From the NCBI GenBank assembly GCA_016742275.1, contig JACVCD010000011.1:1-64000 (forward strand): a DNA stretch of 64,000 bases. The letters run 5' to 3'. The position numbers were made by a program, and so were the translations under genes. This document shows positions 8,919 to 37,231 of this stretch, piece after piece; position 1 is the first letter of the stretch, and the number at the start of each line of letters is the position of its first letter. The notes under the pieces are model-generated. The model did no database searches and had not been told where the DNA came from. It was given only the letters and a program-made list of their open reading frames with translations. This DNA comes from Gemmatimonadaceae bacterium (lineage in GTDB: Bacteria; Gemmatimonadota; Gemmatimonadetes; Gemmatimonadales; Gemmatimonadaceae).

Positions 8919-9563
8919 ATGTCGAACCAGCAGAGCTCGGGAACGGCACCGAAGCGCAGTACGGTTCGCTACGCGCGCAAGGAATACTGGAACGAGCCTG
9001 AGATGTCGTGGTACGAGCGCGCCTATCTGCCTGAAGTGCTCAAGGGGCTCGCCATCACGACAGGTGTGTTCCTGCGGAACATGGGGAAGTGGCTCACCGG
9101 TCGTCGCGGCGCCATTACCACGTACTATCCTGAAGAGCGTCGGGCGGATTTCGCTCCGCGCAATCGTGGCAAGCATATCCTCACGCAGCGACCCGATGGA
9201 TCGCCGCAGTGCATTGCCTGCAACATGTGTGCGACGGTGTGTCCAGCCAAAGTCATCGAGATTGAAGCCGGATTCGATGCCAACGATCCCGCGCACCCCA
9301 AGTATCCGGTGCGATTCGAGATCGACTACTCGCGCTGCGTGTTTTGTGGCATGTGCGTGGAGGCTTGTCCGGAAGACGCCATTCGCATGCAGGATGATGT
9401 GCCGGATCTCGTCTCGACCGATCGTTACAACATGTGGCTCGGCATGGAAGAGATGCTGACGTGGAAACCGCAGCAGGATGTCGCGAAGCCGTATCCCCCC
9501 AAACCAGTGCCGCTGACATTGAGCGAGCAAGCACGGCGAGGACGCGACCGATCGACACACTAG
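8919..9563 (+). CDS. nuoI: NADH-quinone oxidoreductase subunit I (N6a/N6b)
   Basis: Ferredoxin-like subunit with two [4Fe-4S] clusters (N6a, N6b) carrying electrons between NuoG and NuoB (214 aa). The motifs are CIACNMCATVC and CVFCGMCVEAC, each with its partner CP. An amphipathic/hydrophobic helix near residues 30-50 anchors it to the membrane. The frame opens at 8892 inside nuoH, but ATG 8919 is preferred: it follows the nuoH stop and has GGAGGA (8905-8910) 8 nt upstream. Confidence 0.95.
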   Translation: MSNQQSSGTAPKRSTVRYARKEYWNEPEMSWYERAYLPEVLKGLAITTGVFLRNMGKWLTGRRGAITTYYPEERRADFAPRNRGKHILTQRPDGSPQCIACNMCATVCPAKVIEIEAGFDANDPAHPKYPVRFEIDYSRCVFCGMCVEACPEDAIRMQDDVPDLVSTDRYNMWLGMEEMLTWKPQQDVAKPYPPKPVPLTLSEQARRGRDRSTH

Positions 9564-17801: not shown

Positions 17802-18648
17802 GATGCCCCGTGGACTCGTGATGCCCGATGTTTGAAGAGATAGCGGATGCAAAATGCACCACCTGCGTTTGACGAGTCGCATCGCGGGCCACACTCATGA
17901 CCGGCAATTTGATATGGCGCGACCATTCGAGTGCCATGGTCGTAGGGGCCGACCAGGTGGCGAGCAGACGGGCAGGCGTGTGGGCCGCCTTGTGTATGAG
18001 CTCGTAACTGCAGCGACTGGACATGATGAGGAATCCGTCAGCTGGCATCCCATGATTCAGGAGGGCACCAATCAGTTTGTCGAGGGCATTGTGACGACCA
18101 ACGTCTTCGCGCACGAGTACAATGTCTCCCGATGCCGTGCACCACGCGGCCGCGTGCGCCGAGTGTGTGGCGGCGTGCAGTGGCTGCTGGGCGGTCAGCG
18201 ACTCAAAGGCTGCAAGAATCGCCTCGTCACTCACCTGATGCGGCGATACACGTGCGCTGCTTGGTGTCCGCGACGCGAGGTCGGCCAGCGCTTCAACACC
18301 GCAAAGCCCACAGGCACTGTTGGCCATGAGACTCTGTCCCCGCGCCCGCAGTCGTGCGGCATCATCGTCAGCCAGTGTCACCTCGACCCGGTACTCACCC
18401 ATTGCGGAGTCCACCGCAATGGAGATGGGTTGTGTCGATGCCTGGAGGCCGAGTTCCGTATGCAACACCCCACGAGCCAGATCGTCGAGATGATCTGGCG
18501 TAGCCATGAGCACCGTGCGCGTCTCCCCGTTAACGACCAGATGTATCGGAGACTCCGGCACGATGCCCCACAGCACCTCTGATGCGCTATGCTGACCAAT
18601 GCGAACCTGCTCGTGTGGAACGGCCACGCGCGCCATCGCATCAATCAA
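17791..18648 (-). CDS. fdhD: Formate dehydrogenase sulfurtransferase FdhD
   Basis: Carries sulfur from a cysteine desulfurase to the molybdenum cofactor, a step needed for active formate dehydrogenase (285 aa). The persulfide-carrying CGLCG motif lies near residue 113, and the conserved VREDVGRHNALDKLIG and SSRCSYELIHKAA segments follow. The TTG start at 18648 has GAGGTG upstream at good spacing; ATG 18636 is an alternative. It overlaps fdsA by 8 nt and fdsD by 11 nt, consistent with one operon. Confidence 0.93.
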   Translation of the reverse strand: MIDAMARVAVPHEQVRIGQHSASEVLWGIVPESPIHLVVNGETRTVLMATPDHLDDLARGVLHTELGLQASTQPISIAVDSAMGEYRVEVTLADDDAARLRARGQSLMANSACGLCGVEALADLASRTPSSARVSPHQVSDEAILAAFESLTAQQPLHAATHSAHAAAWCTASGDIVLVREDVGRHNALDKLIGALLNHGMPADGFLIMSSRCSYELIHKAAHTPARLLATWSAPTTMALEWSRHIKLPVMSVARDATRQTQVVHFASAISSNIGHHESTGHHVG

Positions 18649-21352
18649 CGGGACGCACCTCGACTGCCGTGACTTTGTATTCAGGGCAGTTGGTGGCCCA
18701 ATCGGAGAACTCCGTCGTCACGACATTCGCCGCTGCTTCGGGATGATGGAATGTCGTGTACACAATGCCTTCCGGAACACGATCGGTTACACGCGCGTGC
18801 AGTGTGATGGCGCCCTTTCGACTGGCAAGCTGTACGCCGTCTCCGGAGCCAATGCCGCGTACTTCAGCGTCGTGCGGGTGAATCTCCAGCACATCTTCTG
18901 CGTGCCATGCCGTGTTGCCAGTGCGACGTGTCTGTGTGCCAACGTTGTACTGACTGAGAATGCGTCCGGTTGTGAGTAGTAACGGGAAACGCCGAGTGGA
19001 CCGTTCCTCCGTTGGAACATACTGCGTGATGAGGAAACGCCCCTTACCGCGCACAAACCCGCTTTCATGCATAATGCGCGTGCCACGCGGTTGTTTTTCG
19101 TTGCACGGCCATTGCACGCTGCCTACTTCGTCGAGGTAGGAAAATGACACACCGGCAAACGATGGCGTGAGTGCGGAAATCTCATCCATGATGGCCGCTG
19201 CTGACGGATAGGACATGGTGTATCCCATGGCCGACGCCAGTCGACACACGGCTTCCCATTCGTGCAGTCCCGTACGCGGCGGCATCGTGGGTCGCACCCG
19301 ATTGATTCGTCGCTCGGCGTTGGTGAACGTGCCGTCCTTCTCGAGAAACGCTGTGCCCGGCAGGAAGACGTGGGCGTACTTGGCCGTTTCGTTCAGGAAG
19401 AGATCCTGAACAACCACACACTCCATGGCCGACAGACCGGCCGTGACATGCAGCGTATCCGGGTCGGACTGCGCCAGATCCTCGCCCTGGATGAACATGC
19501 CCTTGAACTGACCACTGCGAGCCGATGCCAGCATGTTGGGAATGCGCATGCCTGGTTCGTTGTCGAGCGTGACATCCCACGCCGACTCGAAGCTGGCGCG
19601 CACGGTATCGTCCGAGATATGCCGGTAGCCGGGTAGCTCGTGCGGGAATGATCCCATGTCGCACGACCCCTGCACATTGTTCTGTCCACGCAGCGGGTTC
19701 ACACCTGTTCCTTCACGCCCCACGTGCCCTGCAGCCATGGCCAAGTTGGCGATGCCAAGCACCATGGTGCTTCCCTGACTGTGTTCCGTGACGCCGAGGC
19801 CGTAGTAGATGGCGCTATTGCCTCCTTGGGCGTACAGACGTGCCGCAGCGCGCAGCTCTGCAGCCGGAACACCGGTGGTGGCCTCCGTCGTTTCCGGGCT
19901 GTTCTCCTCACGGGCAATGAACTGTCGCCATTGCTCGAACGAGTGCGCATCACAGCGCTCCGCGACAAACGCTTCGTTCACCAGACCTTCGGTGACAATG
20001 GTGTGTGCCAGCGCGTTGATGACGGCCACATTCGTTCCCGGCCGAAGCGGGAGATGATGGGCTGCGGCAATGTGCGGGCTTCGCACCAGATCGATGCGTC
20101 GGGGATCGATCACGATGAGTTTGGCGCCTTCGCGCAGACGTCGCTTCATGCGTGCGGCGAAAACCGGATGCGCATCGGTCGGGTTGGCGCCGATCACCAC
20201 GATCACATCGGCATGCGCAACCGACTTGAAGTCCTGTGTGCCAGCCGAAGTACCGAAGGTTTGTTTGAGTCCGTAGCCCGTTGGTGAATGACATACCCGG
20301 GCGCAGGTGTCGATGTTGTTGTTGTGAAACGCGGCGCGCACCATCTTCTGCACCACGTACACTTCTTCGTTGGTGCACCGCGATGATGACACGCCACCAA
20401 TGGCGTCGCGTCCATGACGCGCCTGAATGTCGAGGAAGCGCTGGGCCGCGTGGGCAATGGCCTCGTCCCACGTCACTTCACGCCAGGGCTCACTGATGTG
20501 ATCGCGAATCATGGGATGCAGCACACGGTCTGCGTGCGACGCATAGCCCCAGGCGAATCGCCCCTTCACGCAGGAGTGGCCCTCGTTGGCACCACCACTG
20601 TCGTCTGGCGTCATACGTACGACCTGATTCCCCTTGAGCTCGGCCACAAACGAGCAGCCCACGCCGCAATAGGCACAGGTGGTGCGGACTTCGCGATCGG
20701 GCTGTCCGGCGTCAATGACTGTTTTTTCAATCAGCGTGGCGGTTGGACAGGCTTGAACGCACGCGCCGCAGGAGACACACTCGGACGAAAGGAAATCTTC
20801 GTCCATTCCGGCGGAAACCTTGGACGCAAATCCGCGATCCGTAATGCTGAGCGCGAATGTGCCTTGCACCTCGTCGCAGGCGCGCACGCAGCGCGAGCAC
20901 ACAATGCACTTGGACGGATCGAAGGTGAAGTACGGGTTCGATTCGTCTTTCTCTGCTGTCAGATGGTTTGCGCCAGCGTAGCCATAGCGCACTTCACGAA
21001 GCCCAACAGCACCCGCCATATCCTGCAGCTCGCAGTCACCATTCGCGGCGCAGGTGAGGCAGTCGAGCGGGTGGTCAGAAATGTAGAGCTCCATGACATT
21101 CCGCCGCACACGCGCCAGCGTTGGTGTCTGCGTGCGAACCACCATGCCTGATTCGAGTGGAGTGGTGCAGGAGGCGGGAAGTCCCTTGCGACCATCGATC
21201 TCCACTACGCACAGGCGGCACGAGCCAAATGGCTTGAGCGAGTCGGTGGCGCACAGTTTCGGTATTGGCAGTCCGGCCGCCTTGGCAGCCTGCATCACCG
21301 TGGTACCCGTGGGAACGGCGACTTCAACACCATCGATGCGTGCGGTGATCAT
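18641..21352 (-). CDS. fdsA: Molybdenum formate dehydrogenase, catalytic alpha subunit
   Basis: Oxidises formate to CO2 (reversibly in this family) at a molybdenum bis-MGD centre (903 aa). In order: an N-terminal [2Fe-2S] domain (GSCRLCVVEI), a His/Cys [4Fe-4S] site (HPLDCLTCAANGDCELQD), two ferredoxin clusters (CIVCSRCVRAC, CVSCGACVQAC), a cluster next to the active site (TTCAYCGVGCSF) and the molybdopterin oxidoreductase domain. The Mo ligand is a cysteine (DTCARVCHSPTGYGL), not selenocysteine. No signal peptide, so it is cytoplasmic. ATG 21352 overlaps the fdsB stop (ATGA); the longer frame to 21475 is inside fdsB. Confidence 0.95.
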   Translation of the reverse strand: MITARIDGVEVAVPTGTTVMQAAKAAGLPIPKLCATDSLKPFGSCRLCVVEIDGRKGLPASCTTPLESGMVVRTQTPTLARVRRNVMELYISDHPLDCLTCAANGDCELQDMAGAVGLREVRYGYAGANHLTAEKDESNPYFTFDPSKCIVCSRCVRACDEVQGTFALSITDRGFASKVSAGMDEDFLSSECVSCGACVQACPTATLIEKTVIDAGQPDREVRTTCAYCGVGCSFVAELKGNQVVRMTPDDSGGANEGHSCVKGRFAWGYASHADRVLHPMIRDHISEPWREVTWDEAIAHAAQRFLDIQARHGRDAIGGVSSSRCTNEEVYVVQKMVRAAFHNNNIDTCARVCHSPTGYGLKQTFGTSAGTQDFKSVAHADVIVVIGANPTDAHPVFAARMKRRLREGAKLIVIDPRRIDLVRSPHIAAAHHLPLRPGTNVAVINALAHTIVTEGLVNEAFVAERCDAHSFEQWRQFIAREENSPETTEATTGVPAAELRAAARLYAQGGNSAIYYGLGVTEHSQGSTMVLGIANLAMAAGHVGREGTGVNPLRGQNNVQGSCDMGSFPHELPGYRHISDDTVRASFESAWDVTLDNEPGMRIPNMLASARSGQFKGMFIQGEDLAQSDPDTLHVTAGLSAMECVVVQDLFLNETAKYAHVFLPGTAFLEKDGTFTNAERRINRVRPTMPPRTGLHEWEAVCRLASAMGYTMSYPSAAAIMDEISALTPSFAGVSFSYLDEVGSVQWPCNEKQPRGTRIMHESGFVRGKGRFLITQYVPTEERSTRRFPLLLTTGRILSQYNVGTQTRRTGNTAWHAEDVLEIHPHDAEVRGIGSGDGVQLASRKGAITLHARVTDRVPEGIVYTTFHHPEAAANVVTTEFSDWATNCPEYKVTAVEVRPVD

Positions 21353-22956
21353 GTGACCTCCGAATGCTCTCCAACTGCAGCGCTGGCGGGCGTACCAGTT
21401 GGCGCGAGCAAGTCGGTGGAAAAGTGTTTCATAACGCTGCGAACGGGCATGGGCGTCAACCCGCCCATCGCACACAGCGACCCGAGCTCCATCGTTTCAC
21501 ATAGCTCTTCGAGCAGTTCCCAATTGGCACGAGTCTTTTCGCGTTGACGCAGACGCTGAATCACTTCTACACCTCGCGTCGAACCGAGACGACACGGTGT
21601 GCACTTGCCGCACGATTCGTGAGCGCAGAATTCCATGGCAAACTGTGCCTGTTCGGCCATATCCACGGTATCGTCGAACATCACGATACCGCCGTGACCC
21701 AGCATGGCGCCGATAGCGGCAAAGTGCTCATAGGTGAGTGGTGTGTCCCACTGCGATGAGGGCAGGTAAGCACCAAGCGGTCCGCCGACCTGTACGGCAC
21801 GGAGCGCACGACCACTGCGTGTGCCGGCGCCAAATGTCTCCATCAGCTCACGGAGTGAGATGCCGAAGGGCAATTCCACCAATCCGCCGCGCGCCACATT
21901 GCCGGCAAGTTGGAACGGCATGGTGCCCTTGGAGCGGTCGACACCATGACCCGCATAGTGTGGTGACCCGTCGGCCAGAATATGCGGAACAGCCGCTAAT
22001 GTCAGCACATTGTTGATGACGGTTGGACAACCGAACAGGCCTTCGAGGGCGGGAAGAGGTGGTTTGCTGCGAACCTGACCGCGCTTGCCCTCCAGACTCT
22101 CCAGCAGAGCTGTTTCTTCGCCGCAGATGTAGGCACCGCCACCGACACGAAGCTCAATGTCGAATACGTGTGCACTGCCGAGTAGGCTGACGCCGAGCAA
22201 GCCTTTATCGCGGGCGATCGCCAGCGCTTGTCTGAAGACATGAATGGCGTGTGGATATTCGGAGCGCAGGTAGACGTACCCCTGCGCAGCTCCGACGGCG
22301 ATTCCTGCAATGGCCATCCCTTCAATAAGAAGAAATGGGTCGGCCTCAAACAGCAGACGATCAGCGAATGTGCCGGAGTCGCCTTCGTCCGCATTGCAGA
22401 CGATGTACTTGGTTTGGCTGGAGGCCTGTTGCACGGTTCGCCATTTGATGCCGGCCGGAAATGCGGCACCGCCACGCCCACGCAGACCGCTATCGAGAAC
22501 GTCCTGCACGATGGCGGCCTGGTGCATGGTAATTGCGCGCTCGAGACCTGCCATGCCGCCGTGGGCGCGATACTCATCAATCGACAGCGGATCAATACGG
22601 CCGATACGTGCAAACGTCAGACGTGTCTGCATACGGAACCATGGAAACTCGTCCACGACACCAATGCAGCTCGGGTGCCGTAGGTCGGGCTCGCCAACAC
22701 CCAGAATCTCGTCCACCATTTTGGGAGTGACGTTGGCAAAGCCTACACGCCCTTCCGGCGTGTCAATTTCGAGCAGCGGTTCGAGCCAGGCCGCACCACG
22801 GGAGCCGTTGCGAACCACCTGCGCCAGCATGCCGTTCGAAAGCCCGACCTCGCGGCTCCAGCGCTCTGTTGCCGCCGCCACGGCATCCGCACCAACAGAG
22901 CGCGCTGCGGTATCGTTGGGCACGTATAGGCGCGTCACGGACGCAGGCGCGATCAT
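21349..22956 (-). CDS. fdsB: Formate dehydrogenase beta subunit (NAD/FMN site)
   Basis: NuoF-like subunit passing electrons from FdsA to NAD+ (535 aa). It has RGRGGAAFPAGIKW, NADEGDSGTFADR and the [4Fe-4S] motif ESCGKCTPCRLG. About 110 extra N-terminal residues form a thioredoxin-like extension without the cluster cysteines, as in other FdsB proteins. ATG 22956 overlaps the fdsG stop (ATGA), so the longer frame to 23085 is rejected. Confidence 0.94.
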   Translation of the reverse strand: MIAPASVTRLYVPNDTAARSVGADAVAAATERWSREVGLSNGMLAQVVRNGSRGAAWLEPLLEIDTPEGRVGFANVTPKMVDEILGVGEPDLRHPSCIGVVDEFPWFRMQTRLTFARIGRIDPLSIDEYRAHGGMAGLERAITMHQAAIVQDVLDSGLRGRGGAAFPAGIKWRTVQQASSQTKYIVCNADEGDSGTFADRLLFEADPFLLIEGMAIAGIAVGAAQGYVYLRSEYPHAIHVFRQALAIARDKGLLGVSLLGSAHVFDIELRVGGGAYICGEETALLESLEGKRGQVRSKPPLPALEGLFGCPTVINNVLTLAAVPHILADGSPHYAGHGVDRSKGTMPFQLAGNVARGGLVELPFGISLRELMETFGAGTRSGRALRAVQVGGPLGAYLPSSQWDTPLTYEHFAAIGAMLGHGGIVMFDDTVDMAEQAQFAMEFCAHESCGKCTPCRLGSTRGVEVIQRLRQREKTRANWELLEELCETMELGSLCAMGGLTPMPVRSVMKHFSTDLLAPTGTPASAAVGEHSEVT

Positions 22957-23441
22957 GACCGGACCTCGTCGGCAAGCAGTGCATCCAGCCGTTCCGGTGT
23001 AACTCGCCCGTGAATAGCATCGCCAATACGCACGGAAGGCCCCAGTGCACAGTTGCCAAGGCAATAAGTCGCTTCGGCATGCCATGACTGTCCATCGACA
23101 ATGGTCCCAAGTGCAACACCACGCCGCCGTTCCACATGCAGCGCCAAATCCCGGCAGCCAACCGCCTGACAGGCCTCGGCCATGCAGACCTGAACCACAG
23201 TGTCTCCAACCGGCTCTTCGCGAAGGTCATGATAGAACGACACCACACCGTACACTTCAGCGCGGGACACGTTGACGTGTGCGGCTACCGCACGCATGGC
23301 CGCCTGGGATACAAAACCCACGCGCGCCTGCACCTGCTGCAACAACGGCAGCAGGTACGAGGCGCGCGCGGGAGTGGCGGCAAAGAGTTGGTGCAGGATG
23401 GCGAGTTCGTCGTCAGCCGACACCGAGTTCTCAATTGACAT
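22953..23441 (-). CDS. fdsG: Formate dehydrogenase gamma subunit
   Basis: NuoE-like [2Fe-2S] subunit (162 aa) forming, with FdsB, the NAD-reducing module. Ligand cysteines are in VCMAEACQAVGC and CLGNCALGPS. It starts only 6 nt after the korB stop, with no terminator between, which ties the formate dehydrogenase genes to the 2-oxoglutarate oxidoreductase genes. Confidence 0.93.
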   Translation of the reverse strand: MSIENSVSADDELAILHQLFAATPARASYLLPLLQQVQARVGFVSQAAMRAVAAHVNVSRAEVYGVVSFYHDLREEPVGDTVVQVCMAEACQAVGCRDLALHVERRRGVALGTIVDGQSWHAEATYCLGNCALGPSVRIGDAIHGRVTPERLDALLADEVRS

Positions 23442-23447
23442 GACGCC

Positions 23448-24503
23448 TCAGCGATAGCGCTCCATCAGGGAATTGAGTGCTGAGCTACCCGGGCACAGCG
23501 ACTCGTAAGGCAAGTCCACCAACGGAGTTGCCGGAGTCTTGAGATAGTCGTGCATGTCCCGTCCATGTTCGTCCACGAACAGCAGGCCGGTCGCGATCTC
23601 ACCGCGTGCCTGACAGGTGCGTACATGCGAATACGCGGACTCCCGATTGGTGGGATCGTAATCTTCGGCAGTTGCCCGCAAGCGCACCATGCTGCCGTCA
23701 TGCATGGTCACCGTACGCACTTCTTCGTTCGTTTCTGGGACCGTGATTTCGCGCTGCAGCGGCACGAAGTCGGCGTGCACCGCTTCCACTTCATGCTCGC
23801 GCGTGAACGAGTAGCTCTTGGTTGAGCCTTCGTGGTCGTTGAAGCTCACGCACGGGGAGATGATATCGATGATCGCAAATCCCTTGTGCGCGATGCCGGC
23901 CTTGATGATGGGCACGAGCTGCTTCTTGTCACCAGAGAAGCTTCGCGCCACGAACGTGGCACCGATGGTGAGCGCCAGCAGCACCGGATCAATGGGCGAC
24001 TGCTCGTTGGCTTCACCTTTCTTGGACTTCGACCCGACATCGGCCGACGCCGAGAACTGTCCCTTGGTGAGTCCGTATACACCGTTGTTCTCGAGCAGGT
24101 ACAGCATGTTCACATTGCGCCGGATGGCGTGTGACATCTGTCCGAGACCAATCGAGAGTGAATCTCCGTCGCCGGAAACACCGATGTACGTGAGGGCCCG
24201 ATTGGCCGCAGCCGCACCCGAGGTAACCGATGGCATGCGACCATGCACGGAGTTGAAGCCGTGCGACTGCTTCATGAAGTACGCAGTGGTTTTGGACGAG
24301 CAGCCAATGCCACTCATCTTGCCCACGCGATGTGGTTCGAGTTCTAGCTCCCACGCGGCTTGCACTACAGCTGCCGTCACGGAGTCGTGACCACAGCCGG
24401 CACACAACGTGGACATGGTGCCTTCGTAGTCGCGCAATGTGAGGCCGAGGCCGTTGGTGCGCGAGCTGGGGTGCCTTACTGGTGGCTTGGCAATAGAGGT
24501 CAT
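23448..24503 (-). CDS. korB: 2-oxoglutarate:ferredoxin oxidoreductase, beta subunit
   Basis: Thiamine-diphosphate subunit of a 2-oxoacid:ferredoxin oxidoreductase (351 aa). Four cysteines that fit a [4Fe-4S] cluster are visible (LCAGCGHDS, GIGCSSK, ISPCVSF). The ThDP/Mg motif GDGDSLSIGLGQ followed by ENNGVYGLTKGQ is intact. The two-subunit architecture and length fit KOR (2-oxoglutarate) better than pyruvate enzymes, but substrate is inferred. Overlaps korA by 4 nt. Confidence 0.88.
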   Translation of the reverse strand: MTSIAKPPVRHPSSRTNGLGLTLRDYEGTMSTLCAGCGHDSVTAAVVQAAWELELEPHRVGKMSGIGCSSKTTAYFMKQSHGFNSVHGRMPSVTSGAAAANRALTYIGVSGDGDSLSIGLGQMSHAIRRNVNMLYLLENNGVYGLTKGQFSASADVGSKSKKGEANEQSPIDPVLLALTIGATFVARSFSGDKKQLVPIIKAGIAHKGFAIIDIISPCVSFNDHEGSTKSYSFTREHEVEAVHADFVPLQREITVPETNEEVRTVTMHDGSMVRLRATAEDYDPTNRESAYSHVRTCQARGEIATGLLFVDEHGRDMHDYLKTPATPLVDLPYESLCPGSSALNSLMERYR

Positions 24504-26299
24504 GCGGGCACCTGCGCGAGATGACGGAGCACACCGTCAACGACCACCTTGGCCGTGAGTGGCATGCCGCCGTAGTCGAGGATGGAAGTCATGTTGTCAC
24601 GCGGGATGCCGAGTTCGATGGCGAGCAGCGAGCGCAGCTGTGCGTCGCGATTCTGTTCGATGACGAAGTTGCGCTCGTGGCTGTCGAAGAATTCGCGGAC
24701 CTCTTGGCCAAACGGGAAGGCGCGGATGCGCATAACATCCACCATGACCCCCTGATCACGGAGCCGGTCCGCGGCCTCACGCACAGCAGCATCACAACCA
24801 CCAATGGTGACGAGGCCGACCTCACTGCCGGTTTGCAGCGTAAACGCTGGCTTGGGCATCACGGTGGACGCGTGCTCGAACTTACGCTTCAGGCGATCCA
24901 CCAGTTCCTGATACGCATCCGAGTCTTCGGTGTACGCAGCGTGCTTGTCGTGGCCGGATCCACGTACAAAGTAGGCACCCTTGCCGCCAACACCCGGCAG
25001 CGTGCGTGCAGCAATGCCATCGCCGTCCACGTCGAGATACCGCGAGAACTTCTGGATCTTGTCGAGGTCTTCCTTATGAAGGACCTTGCCACGATCGGGC
25101 CGATAGTTGTCGTCCCAGGTGAAACGCTTCACCATCCAGTCATTCATGCCGATATCGAGATCGGTTGCCACGAACACTGGCGTCTGGAATCGCTCAGCCA
25201 TATCGAATGACTGCACCGCCATCTCGAATGCTTCGCCCGGATTGCAGGGGAAGAGCACGAGATGCTTGGTGTCGCCATGTGACGCATAGGCCAACGACAT
25301 GAGGTCGGCCTGCTGCGTGCGCGTGGGCATACCGGTCGCGGGGCCGCAACGCTGAATGTCGAAGAAGACGGCGGGAATATCGGTGTAGTACGCGAGTCCG
25401 ATGAACTCCTGCATCAGCGAAATGCCAGGACCCGAGGTGTTCGTGAATGAACGCGCGCCTGCCCAGCCGGCTCCAATGATGATGCCTGCGGCAGCCAGTT
25501 CATCTTCGGCCTGCAGAATGGCGTAGTTCTTCTCTCCAGTGACCTTGTCTACGCGGAAGCGCTCACAGAATGCCGTGAACTGCTCCATCAATGCCGTAGC
25601 CGGCGTGATGGGATACCACGCACCAACGGTGGCACCTGCGTACACCGCACCCAGCGCGCATGCGGTGTTGCCGTCGATCAGAATGGATTCGCTGGTCGCG
25701 TCCATCTTGCCGAGGTGGAACGGCAACGGGCAGGTGAAGTTGGTCTTGGCGTATTCGTAGCCAAGCTGAATGGCCTTGTGATTCGATTCGAGCAGCTTGG
25801 GCTTCTTGCCGTACTTCTCCGACAGCATACCCGACACGACGTCCATGTCGATGTTGAGCAGTGCTGCGAGCGAACCCGCGTACACGATATTGCGGAGCAG
25901 CGTGCGGTCGCGGTCGCCCTTGAAGTTCTCCACGCAGATGCGACCGAACGGAATCCCCATGATGGTGATGCCTTCGCGCACCAGATCTGGATCGAGCGGC
26001 CACGACGAATCGTACAGCAGGAATCCACCCGGACGGACCGTTGCCACATCCTTGGCATACGTGGATGGATTGAGCGCCACCACGAGATCCACTTCGGAGG
26101 GACGCGCGGTGTAGCCATCCTTGCTCACACGGATTTCATACCATGTGGGCAGGCCCTGAATGTTGGACGGAAAAATGTTTTTGCCGGTGACCGGGATGCC
26201 CATGCGGAAAATCGCCTGCATGAGCAACCCATTGGCGCTGGCAGAGCCTGTGCCATTCACCGTTCCGATCTTGAAGGCAAAATCGTTCACGCCGTTCAT
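24500..26299 (-). CDS. korA: 2-oxoglutarate:ferredoxin oxidoreductase, alpha subunit
   Basis: Fusion of the gamma domain (about residues 1-190, KIGTVNGTGSASANGLL) with the alpha domain (about 200-599), as in two-subunit KorAB enzymes. The alpha domain has the substrate-loop motif YPITPATALMEQF and a TSGPGISLMQEF stretch. With KorB it would convert 2-oxoglutarate plus CoA into succinyl-CoA, CO2 and reduced ferredoxin. ATG 26299 overlaps the upstream gene's stop (ATGA); the longer frame to 26410 is inside that gene. Confidence 0.9.
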   Translation of the reverse strand: MNGVNDFAFKIGTVNGTGSASANGLLMQAIFRMGIPVTGKNIFPSNIQGLPTWYEIRVSKDGYTARPSEVDLVVALNPSTYAKDVATVRPGGFLLYDSSWPLDPDLVREGITIMGIPFGRICVENFKGDRDRTLLRNIVYAGSLAALLNIDMDVVSGMLSEKYGKKPKLLESNHKAIQLGYEYAKTNFTCPLPFHLGKMDATSESILIDGNTACALGAVYAGATVGAWYPITPATALMEQFTAFCERFRVDKVTGEKNYAILQAEDELAAAGIIIGAGWAGARSFTNTSGPGISLMQEFIGLAYYTDIPAVFFDIQRCGPATGMPTRTQQADLMSLAYASHGDTKHLVLFPCNPGEAFEMAVQSFDMAERFQTPVFVATDLDIGMNDWMVKRFTWDDNYRPDRGKVLHKEDLDKIQKFSRYLDVDGDGIAARTLPGVGGKGAYFVRGSGHDKHAAYTEDSDAYQELVDRLKRKFEHASTVMPKPAFTLQTGSEVGLVTIGGCDAAVREAADRLRDQGVMVDVMRIRAFPFGQEVREFFDSHERNFVIEQNRDAQLRSLLAIELGIPRDNMTSILDYGGMPLTAKVVVDGVLRHLAQVPA

Positions 26300-28089
26300 A
26301 CGCTGGCCATCCCGGCGAGCATGCCCGCCACCGGCTTCTTGAGGTCGAAGAGTTGCATGTCCCACGCTGCCGTGGGGCATCGTTCCGCGCAGAGTCCGCA
26401 ATGCAGGCACACGTCTTCGTCCTTCACCATCACCCGTTTGGTCTGCGGCAGCGCGTCAGACACGTACACCGCCTGATCCATGTTGGCGGCCGGTGCAGAC
26501 AGGCGCGTGCGTAGATCCGCTTCCGACGTGCCGTTTGTGGTAATGGTGAGACAACTCGTGGGACACACATCGACACAGGCGTCACACTCGATGCACTGCG
26601 ACGCCGTGAACTGCGTCTGGATATCGCAGTTGAGACAGCGTCCCACTTCCGTGGCGATCTGTTCGGCGGTGAAACCGAGTTCCACTTCAGTGACGAGATC
26701 TTTGAAGCGCGTGGCGAGATCCTCGTGCTTCATCTTCGCGCGCTTGGCGCCTTCGTAGTCGTTGTCGTACGCCCATGAATGCATGCCCACCTTGGCACTG
26801 ACCAAGGTCATGCCATACGGCGGACGATCATTCACATCGCGTCCATGACACTGCGCATCGATGGAGATGGCTGTGGCATGTCCGTGCGCGACGGCCCAGA
26901 TGATGTTTTCGGGACCCCACGCCGCGTCACCACCAAAGAACACCTGCGGGTGCGTGCTCTGATGCGTGGTCTTGCTCACCTTCGGCATACCCTTGCCATC
27001 AAACTCGACGCCGATATCACGCTCGATCCACTCGAACGCGTTGTCCTGGCCGATGGCGAGAATGACCTGATCACACGGCATGATGATGGTGCCGGTGACG
27101 GTGCTCGTCTGCTTACCCGAAGCATCTTCGGTCCACTGCAGCACTTCGAACTCCATGCCAACCAGCTTGCCGTTCTCGATCACCATGCGCTTGGGCGCAT
27201 GATTTTCGATGATTTCGACTTGCTCTTCCTCTGCGTCCTCGAGCTCCCACGGCGAAGCCTTGAAGTGCTTGCGACCACGACGCGCAATGACCTTCACGTC
27301 GGTTGCGCCAAGGCGCTTGGACGTGCGGCAGCAGTCCATAGCCGTGTTGCCTACACCGATGATGATGACACGCGGTCCGAGCTTTTCGATGTGACCGAAG
27401 TGCACGTTGGCGAGGAACTCGATGCCGATGTGCACCTGTTCCGGCGCATCCCACCGACCGGGGATATCGAGTTCCTTGCCCTTGGGTGCACCACTGCCAA
27501 CGAACACGGCATCGTAGCCTTCGTCGAGCAAACCTTTGAGGCTCGTGACGGCCGTGCCGTACTTCATCGTCGCGCCCATGTCGATCACGTACGCGCATTC
27601 CTCATCGAGCACCTGCGAGGGCAGGCGGAATGACGGAATGTTGATGCGCATGAGACCACCTGGTGTCGCATTGCGCTCGTAGATCGTGACGTCGTAGCCG
27701 AGTGGCAACAAGTCATTCGCAACGGTGAGCGACGCGGGGCCCGCGCCGACGAGCGCGACGCGCTTGCCATTCTTGACTGGTGGAGCCTTGGGCAGGAACG
27801 CGCTGATCTCGTCGCGATGATCGGAGGCAACGCGCTTCAGTCGACAGATCGCGACCGGCTTCTCCTCGACACGACCGCGACGACACGCGGGCTCGCAGGG
27901 ACGGTCACACACACGTCCAAGAATGCCGGGAAAAACATTGGATTCACGGTTGAGCAGGTACGATTCCGTGTACCGGCCCTGAGCGATCAGGCGAATGTAT
28001 CCAGGAACGTTCGTATGGGCCGGACAGGCCCACTGGCAATCCACGACCCGGTGGAAGTATTGCGGGTCGGAGACATCGGTCGCTGCCAT
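26296..28089 (-). CDS. GltD/NfnB-like FAD oxidoreductase with C-terminal ferredoxin domain
   Basis: FeS flavoprotein related to the small subunit of glutamate synthase and to NfnB (597 aa). The N-terminal cysteine-rich domain (DCQWACPAHTNVPGY, RVCDRPCEPACRRG) binds [4Fe-4S] clusters. Two nucleotide-binding motifs follow (VALVGAGPASLTVANDL for FAD; VIIIGVGNTAMDCCR for NAD(P)H). After residue 480 a two-cluster ferredoxin domain follows (CIECDACVDVCP and CLHCGLCAERCP). As first gene of the kor operon it probably takes electrons from KorAB and reduces NAD(P)+. It is not glutamate synthase: no large subunit is nearby. AAGGAG lies upstream of ATG 28089. Confidence 0.85.
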   Translation of the reverse strand: MAATDVSDPQYFHRVVDCQWACPAHTNVPGYIRLIAQGRYTESYLLNRESNVFPGILGRVCDRPCEPACRRGRVEEKPVAICRLKRVASDHRDEISAFLPKAPPVKNGKRVALVGAGPASLTVANDLLPLGYDVTIYERNATPGGLMRINIPSFRLPSQVLDEECAYVIDMGATMKYGTAVTSLKGLLDEGYDAVFVGSGAPKGKELDIPGRWDAPEQVHIGIEFLANVHFGHIEKLGPRVIIIGVGNTAMDCCRTSKRLGATDVKVIARRGRKHFKASPWELEDAEEEQVEIIENHAPKRMVIENGKLVGMEFEVLQWTEDASGKQTSTVTGTIIMPCDQVILAIGQDNAFEWIERDIGVEFDGKGMPKVSKTTHQSTHPQVFFGGDAAWGPENIIWAVAHGHATAISIDAQCHGRDVNDRPPYGMTLVSAKVGMHSWAYDNDYEGAKRAKMKHEDLATRFKDLVTEVELGFTAEQIATEVGRCLNCDIQTQFTASQCIECDACVDVCPTSCLTITTNGTSEADLRTRLSAPAANMDQAVYVSDALPQTKRVMVKDEDVCLHCGLCAERCPTAAWDMQLFDLKKPVAGMLAGMASV

Positions 28090-29256: not shown

Positions 29257-29315
29257 AGTTGATCTTCATATCACCAGGCTTATTCCGTCAAGTCTTTCCC
29301 CTCACGGAGTATGTC

Positions 29316-29861
29316 ATGACGTTCGTTCCGGCGGTTTCCGGTCCTGTTCCGGGCCTCGAAGTTGGGTTGGGTTTGTTGATCGCGCGTCTGGTGGTGGGCG
29401 GCTACATGGCTGCGCACGGGGCGCAGAAGTTATGGGGCTGGTTTGGCGGCTACGGTCTCGATGCCACGGCCGGGTTTTTCGAGGGCATTGGCTATCGTCC
29501 GGGACGCCTCTTCGTGGCCATGGCGGCGGGTACCGAGGTGCTGAGCGGCCTACTGGTGATGCTTGGGTTGTTGGGCCCCGTTGGTCCCGCACTGATGATC
29601 GCGGTCATGATCGTGGCGGCCGTCACGGTGCATTGGGCGCACGGCTGGTTTGTGGCGAGCAACGGTATAGAACTCACGCTGATGTTTTCGAGTAGCGCGG
29701 TGGTGTTGGCGCTGACTGGGTTTGGTTCGCTGTCACTCGATCACGTGTTGCAGCTGACCGGGTACTTCACACCGACGTTGACGAGTCTCGTGATAGTCGG
29801 TGGTCTCATTGGTGGAGTGGTGGGTTTGGCCATTCGTTCACCGCAGGTGCAAGAGAGCTGA
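29316..29861 (+). CDS. DoxX family membrane protein
   Basis: Integral inner-membrane protein (181 aa) with four to five hydrophobic helices and the DoxX/TQO small-subunit-like pattern LLIARLVVGGYMAAHGAQKL. Members are linked to redox or sulfur stress but the reaction here is unknown. ATG 29316, with GGAG a few nt upstream, is preferred over the TTG at 29259. It is followed after 3 nt by the pirin gene and is probably controlled by the divergent AraC regulator. Confidence 0.82.
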   Translation: MTFVPAVSGPVPGLEVGLGLLIARLVVGGYMAAHGAQKLWGWFGGYGLDATAGFFEGIGYRPGRLFVAMAAGTEVLSGLLVMLGLLGPVGPALMIAVMIVAAVTVHWAHGWFVASNGIELTLMFSSSAVVLALTGFGSLSLDHVLQLTGYFTPTLTSLVIVGGLIGGVVGLAIRSPQVQES

Positions 29862-31718: not shown

Positions 31719-31799
31719 ATGACGCACGAGTACCGCCCCACCTCGCTGTTCGCCTCCGCCTTTGCTTCCGCGCCGGTCCCGGCCGCCGGAGACCGCTGA
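31719..31799 (+). CDS. Possible 26-codon leader ORF ahead of icmF
   Basis: Small open frame read by hand: ATG 31719 to TGA 31797-31799, its stop overlapping the icmF ATG (TGATG). The peptide starts [15 protein letters not shown] and is Ala/Pro-rich with no known motif. A TATATT box (31708-31713) would place transcription start at or next to this ATG, giving a leaderless message. It has no Shine-Dalgarno. It could be a coupled leader or chance. Confidence 0.3.
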
Positions 31800-34700
31800 T
31801 GACTACTAGCACGCCGCCGCTCCCGCGCACGTCTGGCAATCGGACTACCGCCGTCGCCCCGACACCGGCTTCCGCCGATTCGTCACCGCCGGAGCACTAC
31901 CGGGCCCGCCACACGATCCGCATTGTCACCGCCGCTTCGCTCTTTGACGGCCACGACGCGTCGATCAACATCATGCGGCGCATCCTCCAGGCCAGCGGCG
32001 CCGAGGTCATCCACCTCGGCCATGACCGTTCGGTGGACGAGGTGGTAGCCTGCGCCATCCAGGAGGACGCCAACGCCATCGCGATGACGTCGTACCAGGG
32101 CGGCCACGTCGAGTACCTCAAGTACATGCATGATCGGCTGGAGGCCGAGGGCTGCGGCCACATCCGCATCTTTGCTGGCGGTGGCGGTGTGATTCTGCCT
32201 GACGAAGTTCGCGAGCTCGAGGCCTACGGCATCGAGCGCATTTACTCGCCGGACGACGGCCGCTCGCTGGGGCTGCAGGGCATGATCGACGACCTGCTGC
32301 GCCGCTGCGACTTTGCGACCGGCAAGGATGTCACGGCTCAGGACGTTGAGGCCGCTCGCCAGCGCGAACCGCGCTCCATCGGACGCCTCATCTCGGCGGC
32401 GGAAAATTTCCGCGATGAACACACCGGGCTGCTCGATTCCATCCGCGCCGATGCCGTCACGCGTCCGGTACCCGTGCTTGGCATCACCGGCACTGGTGGC
32501 GCGGGCAAGTCGTCGCTGGTGGACGAACTGGTGCGCCGGTTCCTCATGGATCACCCCGATCGCACCATCGGCATCATTTCGGTGGATCCCAGCAAGCGTC
32601 GCACGGGTGGGGCGCTGCTCGGCGATCGCATTCGCATGAACGCCATTCACACGCCGCGTGTGTACATGCGTTCGCTCGCCACGCGTCAGGCCAACCTGGC
32701 CTTGTCGGGTCACGTACGCGATGCGCTGGCCGTGCTCACCATTGCCGGTTTCGATCTCATCATCCTCGAGACGTCGGGCATTGGACAGAGTGACACGGAA
32801 ATCGTGGATCACTCCGATGTCTCGCTGTATGTGATGACGCCCGAGTACGGCGCGGCAACGCAGCTCGAGAAGATCGACATGCTCGACTTCGCCGATGTGG
32901 TGGCCATCAACAAGTTCGACAAGCGCGGCGCGCTCGATGCGCTGCGTGATGTGCGCAAGCAGTATCAGCGCAATCACAAGCGCTTCACACAGCCGGCGGA
33001 TTCGATGCCGGTGTTTGCCACCATTGCGTCGCAGTTCAACGACCCCGGTACCACGCGACTCTATCGTGCGGTGATGGAGCGGGTCGTCGAGAAAACGAGT
33101 GCTTCGCTGGCGCCGACAATCACGGCAGCCGGAGACTCGGAGAAGGTCCGCATCATTCCACCGGAGCGTGCACGGTATCTCGCTGAGATTTCCGAGACGA
33201 TTCGCGCCTACAATCGCCGCGCAGACGAGCAGAGTGCGTTGGCGCGTCAGGTGCAGGCGATGCGTGAGTCGGAGTTGTTGCTCGGTGACGACGAAGCCGC
33301 GTCGATCGTGCGCACGCGGCGCGAAGAGCTGGAGCGCAAGCTCGACGGTGAATACCGGGCAATGCTGGAGAACTGGCCGGCCACCCGTGAAGCGTATGCC
33401 GGTGATGAGTTCGTGTATCAGGTGCGCGGAAAGGATGTGCGCGTGCCGATCACGACCGAAACATTGTCCCGCAAGTCGGTGCCGAAGGTTGCACTCCCGA
33501 CATACACGGGATGGGGCGACCTGCTGCGTTGGATGCTGCAGGAAAATCTACCGGGTAGCTTCCCGTATACGGCCGGCGTATTCCCGTTCAAGCGCGAAGG
33601 TGAAGATCCGACGCGCATGTTTGCGGGTGAGGGTGGCCCGGAGCGCACCAATCGCCGCTTCCACTATGTGTCGCACGGCTTGCCGGCGCATCGTCTTTCA
33701 ACGGCGTTTGACTCGGTCACGCTATACGGCAATGACCCGGCTACGCGTCCCGACATCTACGGCAAGATCGGCAACTCGGGTGTCAGCGTCTGCTGCCTCG
33801 ACGATGCCAAGAAGCTCTATTCGGGCTTTGATCTGGCCGCTCCGACGACGTCGGTGTCGATGACGATCAACGGCCCGGCGCCGATGCTCACGGCGTTCTT
33901 CATGAACGCGGCCATCGATCAGCAGTGCGAGAAGTACATTCGCGCGAACGGTATGGAGGCCGAAGTCGAAGCGAAGCTCGAAGCCTTCTTCAGCGAGCGT
34001 GGCACGCCGCGCCCGCGTTACGAGGGACCGCTGCCCGAGGGGAATGACGGTCTGGGTCTCATGCTGCTGGGTGTGACGGGCGACCGTGTGCTGCCGCGGG
34101 AGGTGTACGACCGCATCAAGAAGGAAACGATGTCGGCGGTGCGCGGCACGGTACAGGCGGACATCCTCAAGGAAGATCAGGCACAGAATACGTGCATCTT
34201 CTCGACCGAGTTCTCGCTCAAGCTGATGGGCGACGTGCAGGAGTATTTCACGCACAACGATGTGCGGAACTTCTACTCGGTGTCGATCTCGGGCTACCAC
34301 ATTGCCGAGGCGGGTGCCACGCCCATTACGCAGTTGGCGTTCACGCTGGCCAACGGCCTGACGTACGTCGAGTACTACCTGTCGCGTGGACTGCCCATCG
34401 ACAGCTTCGCGCCCAACCTGTCGTTCTTCTTCTCGAACGGCGTGGACCCCGAGTACGCGGTCATCGGACGTGTGGCGCGGCGTATCTGGGCCAAGGCCAT
34501 CAAGCTCCGGTACGCCGGCGCTGCGCGTTCGCAGATGCTCAAGTATCACGTGCAGACCAGCGGACGTTCGCTGCATGCGCAGGAGATCGCCTTCAACGAC
34601 ATTCGCACCACGTTGCAGGCGCTCTACGCGATCTTTGACAACTGCAATTCGCTGCACACCAACGCATACGACGAAGCCATCACCACGCCCACCGAAGAAA

Positions 34701-35242
34701 GTGTGCGGCGAGCCATGGCCATCCAGCTCATCATCAATCACGAATTCGGTCTCGCCAAGAACCAGAATCCGTGGCAGGGCTCCTTCATCATCGAGCAACT
34801 CACCGACCTCGTGGAAGAGGCCGTGCTGCAGGAGTTCGAGCGCATCAGTGAGCGTGGCGGTGTGCTGGGCGCGATGGAGACCATGTACCAGCGCGGCAAG
34901 ATCCAGGAAGAGTCGCTGCATTACGAAACGCTCAAGCACGACGGACGCTTCCCGGTGATTGGCGTGAACACGTTCCTGTCTAAGGACGGTTCACCGACCA
35001 TGCTGCCGGCCGAAGTGATTCGTTCGACCACGGAAGAGAAGGACGCACAGATCGCGACGGTGGACGCGGTGCACGCGTGCTACGCGAACGAGCGCGGCGC
35101 CGCCCTGGCTCGCCTTCGTGACCGGGCGTTGGCCAACGTCAACGTCTTCGAGGAGCTGATGGAGACGACCAAGGTGTGCACGTTGGGTGAAATCGCGCGC
35201 GCGCTGTTTGAAGTGGGTGGGCAGTATCGCCGCAACATGTAG
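31799..35242 (+). CDS. icmF: Fused isobutyryl-CoA mutase IcmF
   Basis: B12-dependent acyl-CoA mutase interconverting isobutyryl-CoA and n-butyryl-CoA (1147 aa). Order: B12-binding domain with base-off histidine H52 ([10 protein letters not shown]); MeaI-type GTPase chaperone with P-loop at 228-239 ([12 protein letters not shown]); mutase domain from about 550. Two substrate-pocket residues argue against methylmalonyl-CoA: F595 (VFPFKR) replaces the mutase tyrosine, and Q796 (EDQAQNT) replaces the carboxylate-binding arginine seen in the neighbouring MutB. A pivalyl-CoA mutase variant is not excluded. ATG 31799 has GGAG 8 nt upstream. First gene of the icmF-mutA-mutB-meaB operon. Confidence 0.95.
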
Positions 35243-35245
35243 GTG

Positions 35246-37231
35246 ATGCACGCTTCGCTTGCTTCCGAGGCTGCCGAATCCCCGGCGGCCGAGCCCCTGA
35301 CGGCTGATTTCGATCAGTTCACCATCGACGCCTGGCGCGCGCTGGCGGAACGTTCGCTCAAGGGGCGTTCGCTTGATACGCTGGTCAGTCGCACCGATGA
35401 CGGGATCGCCATAGCGCCGTTGCTCACGGCGCTCGATGCACCCGCGCTGGCTCCGTCGGCAGCGCGCGTGCCGCATGGTGCGTGGGATGTTCGGCAGGCG
35501 CATGCGCATGTTGATCCGGCACGCGCCAACGCGCAGTTGCTCGAGGATCTGATCGGCGGAGCCACGTCGATTGTGTTGCATGCCGATCCCACCGGCGCAC
35601 GCGGCACTCGTGTGCGGAGCGCCGCGGATCTGGATCGTGCCCTCGAGGGTGTGTTTCTCGAGATGGCAGGTGTGCATCTCGCGCCGCATGGGCCGTGGGA
35701 GGCGTTGGCTGAAACATTCCGTCGCTGGCTCGTGGCACATGCACCTGCCAGTTACCCCGTGCGGGGTGGTCTCGGTGCCGATCCGTTGGGTGCATTGGTC
35801 TCGACGGGCTCGCTCGATACTTCGATGGACGATGCCCTGCAGCGCTTGGGCGCATTGGCGGTCCGCACCCATGAAGCACTGCCAGGTGTTCGCGCGGTCC
35901 GTGTGTCGTCACTGCCGTATCACGGTGCGTGGGCTTCGGAGGCCATCGAACTGGCAAGTCTCGTGGCGACCGGCATCACCTATCTGCGTGCGCTGGTGGA
36001 CTCAGGCCTCGACCTGACGTCTGCCGCAGCGCAGATCGAATTCGAGTTGGCTGCGGACGGAGACCAGTTCCTCACCATCGCCAAGGTGCGCGCGGCACGT
36101 CGACTCTGGGCGCGTGTGATCGAGGCGTGTGACGGCGATCCCATAGCGACGCCGATGTCGCTGGCTGCGGTCACTGCGCCGCGCATGTACACGCGACACG
36201 ATCCGTACGTGAACGTGCTGCGCGCAACTACGGCCGCGTTTTCGGCAGGCGTCGGCGGTGTGGATGCGATCACCGTGTTGCCGCACGATACGTGCCTCGG
36301 CTATCCGGGCGCGCGCGCACGACGTATCGCCCGCAATCTGCATCATGTGCTGATTGCCGAGGGGCAGTTGCGGCGCGTAGACGACCCGGCCGGTGGTGCG
36401 TGGTTGTACGAGCGACTCACTGAAGACTTGGTGCAAGGCGCGTGGTTGTTGGTGCAGGAGTTCGAGCGCGCCGGTGGTATGGGCGCTGCGCTTGTGGATG
36501 GATTGGTGGCGGCGCGTATCGCCAAGGTGGCGTCTGCGCGCTGGACGCGCATCTGCACACGCCGTGAGGCGCTGGTGGGTACGAGTGTGTTCCCGATGCG
36601 CGACGCGCCGGTGCTTGATACCGAGCCACGTGCGAACACTGCGTCCGCCTCCACGGAGGCGCTTTCGCTCGCGCCAGTGGCGTCCTCCAGCGGAGGCGTG
36701 ACCGTTGCGCCGTTCCCAGCCATGCGACTGGCCGCGCCCTATGAGGCACTGCGTGATGCTTCCGATGCGGCACTCACTGCAACGGGATCACGTCCACGTG
36801 TAGCGCTGGTGGCCATTGGTGCTGTGGCTGACCATGCGGCGCGTGTGGGCTTTGCACGTCAGCTGCTTGCCGCCGGTGGCATCGACGACACCACGATTGC
36901 CGTTCCAGTTGGGGATGGTGGCACACTCGATCTCGAAGGACTCACACAGGCGTTCGTGAACAGCGAAACGCGTGTCGTGTGCCTGTGCGCCAGCGATGAC
37001 GACTATGCGCAGCATGCTGCAAGCGTCGCGCGTGTTGTGCACGCCGCCGGTGCGCGTGGTGTGTGGATGGCTGGGCGTCCCGGCGAGCACGAAGCGGCGT
37101 GGCGCGAAGCTGGTGTGACCGGCTACGTGTACCTCGGCTGTGATGTGCCCGCGGCGCTGCGTTCCATGTTAACCGCACTCGGTATTGCGGTTGAGCCGGT
37201 GCTTCCTCCGTTTGCGACAGCTGCCGTATGA
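35246..37231 (+). CDS. mutA: Methylmalonyl-CoA mutase small subunit
   Basis: Non-catalytic partner of MutB (661 aa). It has the same barrel-plus-B12-domain layout, but the C-terminal domain lacks the DxHxxG cobalamin motif (the segment reads [15 protein letters not shown]), as expected for the small subunit. GTG 35243 immediately follows the icmF stop; ATG 35246 is taken as start. It ends with an ATGA overlap with mutB. Divergence from MutB is strong, especially at the N-terminus. Confidence 0.92.

Follow-up and report, generated by a model that had tools for sequence, protein, structure and literature searches.

KorC, a GltD-like protein with a C-terminal ferredoxin-type domain, as the probable pyridine-nucleotide subunit of a three-subunit 2-oxoacid:NADP+ oxidoreductase

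The window, a stretch of 64,000 nucleotides from a Gemmatimonadaceae bacterium, carries on its reverse strand the consecutive genes korC, korA and korB. The first, korC (26296..28089), begins with ATG and encodes a protein of 597 residues and 65.4 kDa, assigned from its open reading frame and its Pfam and NCBIfam matches. Its TGA overlaps the ATG of korA at 26299-26296, the ATGA junction described in an earlier, sequence-only reading of this DNA, and korA and korB overlap in the same four letters. KorA (24500..26299, 599 residues) is a fusion of POR (gamma) and POR_N (alpha) that scores above the cut-off of TIGR03710, and korB (23448..24503) encodes the thiamine-diphosphate subunit of 351 residues, in which C34, C37, C68 and C218 probably ligate a [4Fe-4S] cluster belonging to this subunit. 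A Pfam search detected no Fer4 domain in KorA or KorB. Six bases past korB, on the same strand, begin fdsG-fdsB-fdsA-like genes for an NAD-dependent formate dehydrogenase (18641..23441), which are probably co-transcribed with korCAB. They are no conserved part of it; among loci L031-L130, many of which end early, only L046 and L052 have them. That no separate ferredoxin gene lies at korCAB, as had been stated, holds for a Fer4_7 search: the other Fer4_7 sites of the window are at 9207-9380 (NuoI-like by eye) and at 20738-20911, inside the formate-dehydrogenase alpha subunit. On another contig the same genome encodes an 87-residue ferredoxin, FdxA-like by eye, and the genome also has a gene for 2-oxoglutarate dehydrogenase E1 (above cut-off).

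KorC itself joins a GltD-like FAD/NAD(P)H core to a 2[4Fe-4S] domain at its C-terminus. Pfam places, each above its curated cut-off, a Fer4_20 domain at residues 17-94 (27808..28041), the FAD- and NAD(P)H-binding folds of Pyr_redox_2 at residues 110-403 (26881..27762), the core of which also matches by fold, and a Fer4_7 dicluster at residues 498-575 (26365..26598), all on the reverse strand like the gene. The two [4Fe-4S] motifs that had been recognized beyond residue 480 are thus borne out, with eight cysteines in two CxxCxxCxxxC motifs (C499-C502-C505-C509 and C561-C564-C567-C571) that are separated by a long loop and predicted to bind two clusters. A third cysteine pair beyond residue 480, absent from the earlier account, is found in the RCLNCD segment (C485 and C488; residues 466-490, 26620..26694, reverse strand, placed by a weak NfnL alignment), and is probably part of a GltD-type cluster outside the ferredoxin domain. 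When the ferredoxin domain is taken alone, the FdxA, PorD, NuoI and HgcB models score it alike, at 35-37 bits; it gives PorD/KorD no preference, which counts against the interpretation favored below. The NCBIfam model nearest to the whole protein carries the name "NAD(P)-binding protein".

An AlphaFold model of KorC has a mean pLDDT of 69 and a pTM of 0.64. pLDDT is below 50 in residues 1-24, most of 429-512, and 558-580, and the parts of low confidence include the N-terminus, RCLNCD and both cysteine motifs of the ferredoxin domain, a further point against the favored interpretation. Foldseek confirmed only the GltD core, which matches structures of Nfn, Stn, GltD and dihydropyrimidine dehydrogenase (DPD); the two longest of its top alignments have an rmsd of 16-17 and are uninformative on the ferredoxin domain.

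The cysteines of this domain are conserved to a degree that rules out a chance origin of the motif. An alignment of 127 rows, which with repeats of the same gene represent 120 distinct homologues and from which four gap-split copies were excluded beforehand, retains all eight in 118/120; the exceptions are L062, with an ambiguous residue at the site, and L043, a remote relative of 35% identity. Seven GltD-type cysteines, C485 and C488 among them, are present in 120/120. The Fer4_20 region contributes conserved C18, C22, C61, C65 and C69 together with K85, which is likewise found in all 120 and aligns with K170 of StnC. Residues 466-490 align to the segment of NfnL that precedes its N-terminal cluster cysteines, at 8.5 bits, a weak match on its own. 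From these positions we infer that C485 and C488 complete the distal GltD-type cluster, so that the cysteines of KorC would suffice for four clusters, of which one would draw its ligands from both the N-terminus and the displaced RCLNCD. The text of the Stn paper leaves the cysteines of its cluster C6 unnamed, and the split-ligand reading thus draws on the cysteine counts in the alignment and the weak NfnL match. In the dinucleotide-binding part, R270 is invariant in 40 sequences and R271 is not, the latter position being serine in KorC of Aromatoleum aromaticum EbN1.

The same domain order recurs beside other korAB pairs, as the sequence-only reading had proposed looking for. A close KorA (E <= 1e-100, a threshold that distant KorA types without KorC would escape) is encoded in 76 of 150 genomes of the phylum, which are related and therefore do not represent independent samples, and KorC is found in 76/76 of these, in a set hand-picked from the best matches listed at no less than 61% identity. 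KorC lies directly upstream of KorA on the same strand in 73 of the 76; in two others (G053, G112) the genes are on different contigs and in one (G051) KorC is in pieces. In G097, a 264-residue piece of KorC is present and no KorA passes E <= 1e-100. Among the pattern matches listed from genome contigs, 594 of 596 were confirmed as KorC relatives; one set of 30 loci includes the window itself. Among the best 80 of 594, a selection that favors full-length relatives, KorA is directly downstream of KorC in 75 named loci, and KorC, KorA and KorB occur together in 67, with 11 of the other 13 reaching a contig end. In the eight of these 80 that have KorA and lack KorB, the sequence ends within 38 bases of KorA. 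Three of the five without KorA are contig ends; the other two are Ignavibacteriae loci in which no KorA is seen within the 2.3 and 8 kb visible, and these count against the favored interpretation. A 1198-residue KorC-KorA reading in L062, which crosses an ambiguous residue, and the split KorC of G124 and G074, whose halves border X runs derived from Ns, were tentatively taken as assembly artefacts rather than natural variants.

Taken with this linkage, the domain content makes it quite probable that KorC serves as the pyridine-nucleotide subunit in KorCAB, a 2-oxoacid:NADP+ oxidoreductase of three subunits that most likely acts on 2-oxoglutarate. Sequence separates neither 2-oxoglutarate from other 2-oxoacids nor, with R270 invariant but R271 variable, NADP from NAD, which weighs against this degree of specificity. 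As KorA and KorB show no Fer4 domain, the electrons of KorB could plausibly go to the fused 2[4Fe-4S] module, and as FAD and dinucleotide folds are in the same protein, the final acceptor is likely NAD(P)+, as for the 2-oxoglutarate:NADP+ oxidoreductase published from Azoarcus evansii. The module is therefore best read as an internal relay, from KorAB through the ferredoxin clusters and two GltD-type clusters to FAD and NAD(P)+. Of the idea that KorC supplies a built-in ferredoxin acceptor for KorAB, the electron-transfer partnership is supported (KorC in 76/76) and the role of acceptor is plausible, whereas PRK12771 and DPD speak against an unusual addition, and the FAD and dinucleotide folds against its being the terminal acceptor.

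In this favored reading KorA, judged by its domains, would bind the 2-oxoacid and CoA, and KorB would carry thiamine diphosphate and one [4Fe-4S] cluster, from which electrons would enter the C-terminal domain of KorC, the putative replacement for the delta (PorD/KorD) ferredoxin subunit missing from two-subunit KorAB. They would then pass to a distal cluster with candidate ligands C18, C69, C485 and C488, split across the NAD(P)H domain, to a proximal cluster (C22, C61, C65) ligated by K85 as in StnC and, by analogy with StnC, NfnL and DPD, to a non-bifurcating FAD and NADP+. Since 2-oxoglutarate is far more strongly reducing than NADPH, the oxidative direction is most likely, and KorCAB would yield succinyl-CoA and NADPH alongside the ordinary 2-oxoglutarate dehydrogenase. 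In a fuller proposal, to which we give an even chance, KorC would form a continuous wire of four [4Fe-4S] clusters, one of them with the split ligands and the proximal one with the lysine, and with its C-terminal domain in the place of the delta subunit a ferredoxin-type KOR would become a direct producer of NADPH in many phyla.

It could instead be that the fused ferredoxin domain is the acceptor proper, passing electrons to other partners, with the GltD part secondary or running from NADPH to ferredoxin. The A. evansii enzyme is said to be able to give electrons to ferredoxin as well as to NADP+, and the conserved ferredoxin cysteines and the locus without a free Fer4_7 ferredoxin gene fit this idea. 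In PMC8163825, moreover, the A. evansii paper is the reference given for regeneration of reduced ferredoxin by an NADP-dependent oxidoreductase, so that ferredoxin may be a physiological partner, which counts against the favored reading. However, the FAD and dinucleotide folds of KorC are intact and conserved, the best fold match is to the GltD core, and a free ferredoxin gene exists elsewhere in the genome; we consider this alternative improbable.

Flavin-based bifurcation or confurcation at the FAD of KorC, which would link the 2-oxoacid reaction to both NAD(P)H and ferredoxin, is suggested by the best-matching solved structures, which come from the bifurcating complexes NfnABC, StnABC and NfnI. 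The glutamate that characterizes the proximal cluster of bifurcating NfnB/NfnL is, however, replaced in all 120 homologues by the StnC-type lysine, and according to the Stn paper K170 ligates a cluster beside an FAD reported to be non-bifurcating. On this residue a bifurcating flavin in KorC was rejected; korCAB also has no second flavin subunit, an adjoining FdsB-like flavoprotein being found elsewhere only in L046 and L052 (among L031-L130), and the idea is very unlikely. Equally hard to credit is the reverse reaction, in which NADPH and reduced ferredoxin would drive reductive carboxylation of succinyl-CoA in CO2 fixation. The 2-oxoacid:ferredoxin oxidoreductases are a reversible class of enzymes, and formate dehydrogenase genes lie downstream of korB, but NADPH by itself does not have the reducing power, and the FAD of KorC looks non-bifurcating.

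An NADP+-linked oxidoreductase remains the preferred reading, and it has consequences for annotation. Relatives of KorC are common (at least 594) yet carry generic names, and naming the set as 2-oxoacid:NADP+ oxidoreductase alters metabolic reconstructions: KorAB here probably works oxidatively as a source of NADPH, and its presence alone is no evidence of a reductive TCA cycle.

The generalization that the NAD(P)H domain is normally the last one in GltD homologues proved wrong, as DPD and the PRK12771 protein beside nifJ share the modules of KorC. PRK12771 (NF009410) is a curated family of GltD-like proteins with a C-terminal ferredoxin domain, the domain order of KorC over its full length, and its member on the Phenylobacterium zucineum plasmid adjoins nifJ as KorC adjoins a 2-oxoacid oxidoreductase. 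That protein is 32% identical to KorC and its ferredoxin region is compact and PorD-like; KorC matches NF009410 over nearly its full length at 393.4 bits, below the cut-off of 516, and KorC of EbN1 scores 389. In DPD, as described in PMC8097209, a GltD-like part and a C-terminal 8Fe ferredoxin domain supply the four clusters that connect FAD with the partner site; the modules are those of KorC, arranged around an extra dihydroorotate-dehydrogenase-like FMN domain that KorC lacks. StnC and NfnA (of NfnABC) have GltD modules like that of KorC, with RCxxC beyond the dinucleotide domain, a proximal lysine and the best fold matches, but they are chains of 963-1178 residues with further domains in bifurcating complexes, whereas KorC adds a ferredoxin domain only and pairs with KorAB; NfnB differs in its proximal glutamate. 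GltD of NADPH glutamate synthase shares Fer4_20 and the FAD/NADPH folds. KorC, unlike it, lacks the first cysteine pair at the N-terminus, has a matching pair at 485/488, carries the extra ferredoxin domain and has KorAB as its partner. A role as the GltD of a glutamate synthase was rejected on that partner and on scores below the cut-off of all 25 best of 55 NCBIfam models, among them TIGR01317 (175/448 bits), TIGR01318 (208/483) and TIGR01316 (248/472).

Closest is the Azoarcus/Aromatoleum group. The 2003 A. evansii paper reportedly gave the GltD-like subunit only two clusters and the dimer about 24 Fe; the ligands of KorC would suffice for four, and that iron content is lower than the 40 implied by the favored reading, which counts against it. 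The purified subunits, said to be of about 62, 63 and 37 kDa, resemble KorC, KorA and KorB (computed masses 65, 66 and 38 kDa) as three subunits of matching kinds. The enzyme, published in 2003, is cited in PMC10134865, where a tree places its KGOR-alpha subunit among GltD and NfnB homologues, and PMC11231019 shows A. evansii in the Aromatoleum lineage; EbN1 is related to A. evansii. Plasmid 2 of EbN1 has korC-korA-korB (EBN1_RS21825-21835) in the same order with 4-base overlaps, at 55/52/59% identity, its KorC being recorded as "FAD-dependent oxidoreductase". By way of these sequences the subunits are homologous to those of the group, and the adjacent genes for GltD-like, gamma-alpha fused and thiamine-diphosphate subunits are those of the KGOR/KorABC type, the differences being the Gemmatimonadota host and the fds genes that follow directly. 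KorCAB is thus a further example of an enzyme type already described in 2003 and widespread in bacteria.

The korC gene (26296-28089, minus strand) is an ORF of 597 aa encoding a GltD-like protein, KorC, with three Pfam domains above cut-off: Fer4_20 (residues 17-94), Pyr_redox_2 (110-403) and Fer4_7 (498-575). Besides the GltD-type cysteines, eight further cysteines make up a C-terminal 2[4Fe-4S] domain, and all eight are kept in 118 of 120 distinct KorC homologues. The C-terminal ferredoxin (Fd) feature described in the sequence-only reading is true and conserved. Directly 3' lies korA, encoding a fused gamma-alpha 2-oxoacid:acceptor oxidoreductase subunit of 599 aa (TIGR03710, above cut-off), followed by korB, encoding the thiamine-diphosphate beta subunit (351 aa). 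The ATGA joint reported for korC and korA is present as the overlap of the korC stop with the korA start, and korA and korB are joined likewise. A Pfam search found no Fer4 domain in KorA or KorB.

The guess that KorAB is the partner of KorC was right. A survey of the phylum (150 genomes) found close KorC (61% identity or more) in 77 genomes, among them all 76 that have close KorA (E <= 1e-100); in 73 of these 76, KorC stands directly upstream of KorA on the same strand, the aligned ends lying -7 to 352 bases apart. KorA is downstream of KorC in 30/30 of the best phylum loci, the window's own included. Four loci in two single-contig genomes (L041, L042, L044 and L045; G124 and G074) carry KorC halves, which look like scaffolding errors rather than real gene splits because the halves adjoin X runs derived from Ns.

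In the named collection, 594 of the 596 pattern matches listed encode a KorC relative, giving at least 594 relatives, the best 80 of which underlie the following counts. KorA is present in 75/80 and KorB as well in 67/80; in the eight with KorA but without KorB, the sequence stops at most 38 bases past KorA. Three of the five loci without KorA stop within 137 bases, and KorA was not found downstream of full-length KorC in two Ignavibacteriae loci, L065 and L082 (2.3 and 8 kb, with other genes there). Titles of the 80, which belong to metagenome-assembled genomes and are possibly wrong in places, name Gemmatimonadota, Proteobacteria, Acidobacteria, Actinobacteria, Myxococcota, Ignavibacteriae, Planctomycetota and Binatia; by title, the 12 best relatives comprise eight Gemmatimonadota, three Planctomycetota or Pirellulales and one "bacterium".

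The GltD core of KorC matches the NfnABC, StnABC, NfnI, GltD and DPD (dihydropyrimidine dehydrogenase) structures in sequence and fold. Profile alignment shows the first cysteine pair missing from the KorC N-terminus. Residues 466-490, which include RCLNCD (C485/C488), align to NfnL 24-48, the segment immediately before the next NfnL cysteines, at 8.5 bits, a score weak alone. The GltD-like part of StnC spans residues 102-565 and holds two clusters, according to a passage of PMC10482914; with lysine K170 as one ligand, seven cysteines are needed, a need that would be satisfied if the CxxC aligned with that of KorC (562-565, counted on the alignment) joins the five N-terminal cysteines. K170 aligns with KorC K85, and K85 and the seven GltD-type cysteines are kept in 120/120 distinct homologues. 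FAD neighbouring the K170-ligated cluster was read by the Stn authors as non-bifurcating (PMC10482914).

Electrons would pass from the KorB cluster through the Fd domain, the distal cluster, the proximal cluster and FAD to NADP+. What the sequences show is which domains are present, how the genes are linked and how far they are conserved; the bound clusters, the transfer order, and the substrate and cofactor of KorCAB are predicted. The earlier emphasis on a built-in terminal ferredoxin needs correcting, as the proposed path ends at NADP+. The Fd domain alone gives similar, weak scores against FdxA, PorD, NuoI and HgcB models. A free ferredoxin of 87 aa, FdxA-like by eye, is encoded elsewhere in the genome (contig C20, L142 958-1221, minus strand) and is a candidate partner for low-potential electrons.

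Genes for an FdsGBA-type NAD-dependent formate dehydrogenase (18641-23441) begin 6 bases past korB; among loci L031-L130, many too short to show them, fds genes follow korB elsewhere only at L046 and L052. At 29259-29861 (plus strand) lies a gene for a 200-aa protein, DoxX-like by eye, with a sub-threshold match (46.9/80 bits) to HvfX, a Cu-binding RiPP maturation family. Within 31799-37231, a gene for an isobutyryl-CoA mutase fused to a GTPase (IcmF, above cut-off) comes immediately before one for a 662-aa protein resembling the methylmalonyl-CoA mutase small subunit (376/617 bits, below cut-off); this second mutase-like subunit is of possible interest.

The premise that the NAD(P)H domain is where GltD proteins end needs correcting as well. 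In DPD, as described in a part of PMC8097209, a GltD-like domain and a C-terminal 8Fe ferredoxin domain occur together with one further domain; in the same account AegA/YgfT are GltD-like, with the Fd at the N-terminus. A Phenylobacterium zucineum protein of PRK12771, a curated GltD-like family (742 bits, above cut-off), has the KorC-type architecture and adjoins nifJ; after its own family, its Fd region scores best with PorD/KorD delta subunits. Another GltD-like protein (L043 in genome G007, 672-2336), 35% identical to KorC and with an extra C-terminal Fd region, perhaps represents the same architecture with another partner. It adjoins a putative sulfite/nitrite reductase fragment (motif by eye).

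On plasmid 2 of Aromatoleum aromaticum EbN1 the three genes recur in unchanged order with four-base overlaps (55, 52 and 59% identity), and the KorC encoded there has every KorC cysteine discussed here. Variovorax plasmids encode KorC relatives at 57-58% identity, with korA and korB downstream in the one plasmid examined. The purified Azoarcus evansii 2-oxoglutarate:NADP+ oxidoreductase described in 2003 reportedly consists of alpha, beta and gamma subunits, contains FAD, thiamine diphosphate and about 24 Fe per dimer, and reduces NADP+. A passage of PMC8163825 cites that work for an NADP-dependent oxidoreductase regenerating reduced ferredoxin, and a reference title in PMC11231019 places A. 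evansii in what is now the Aromatoleum lineage. The architecture and the three-gene set are already known, and KorCAB adds another member, of specialist interest only for the cluster count and split ligand set of KorC.
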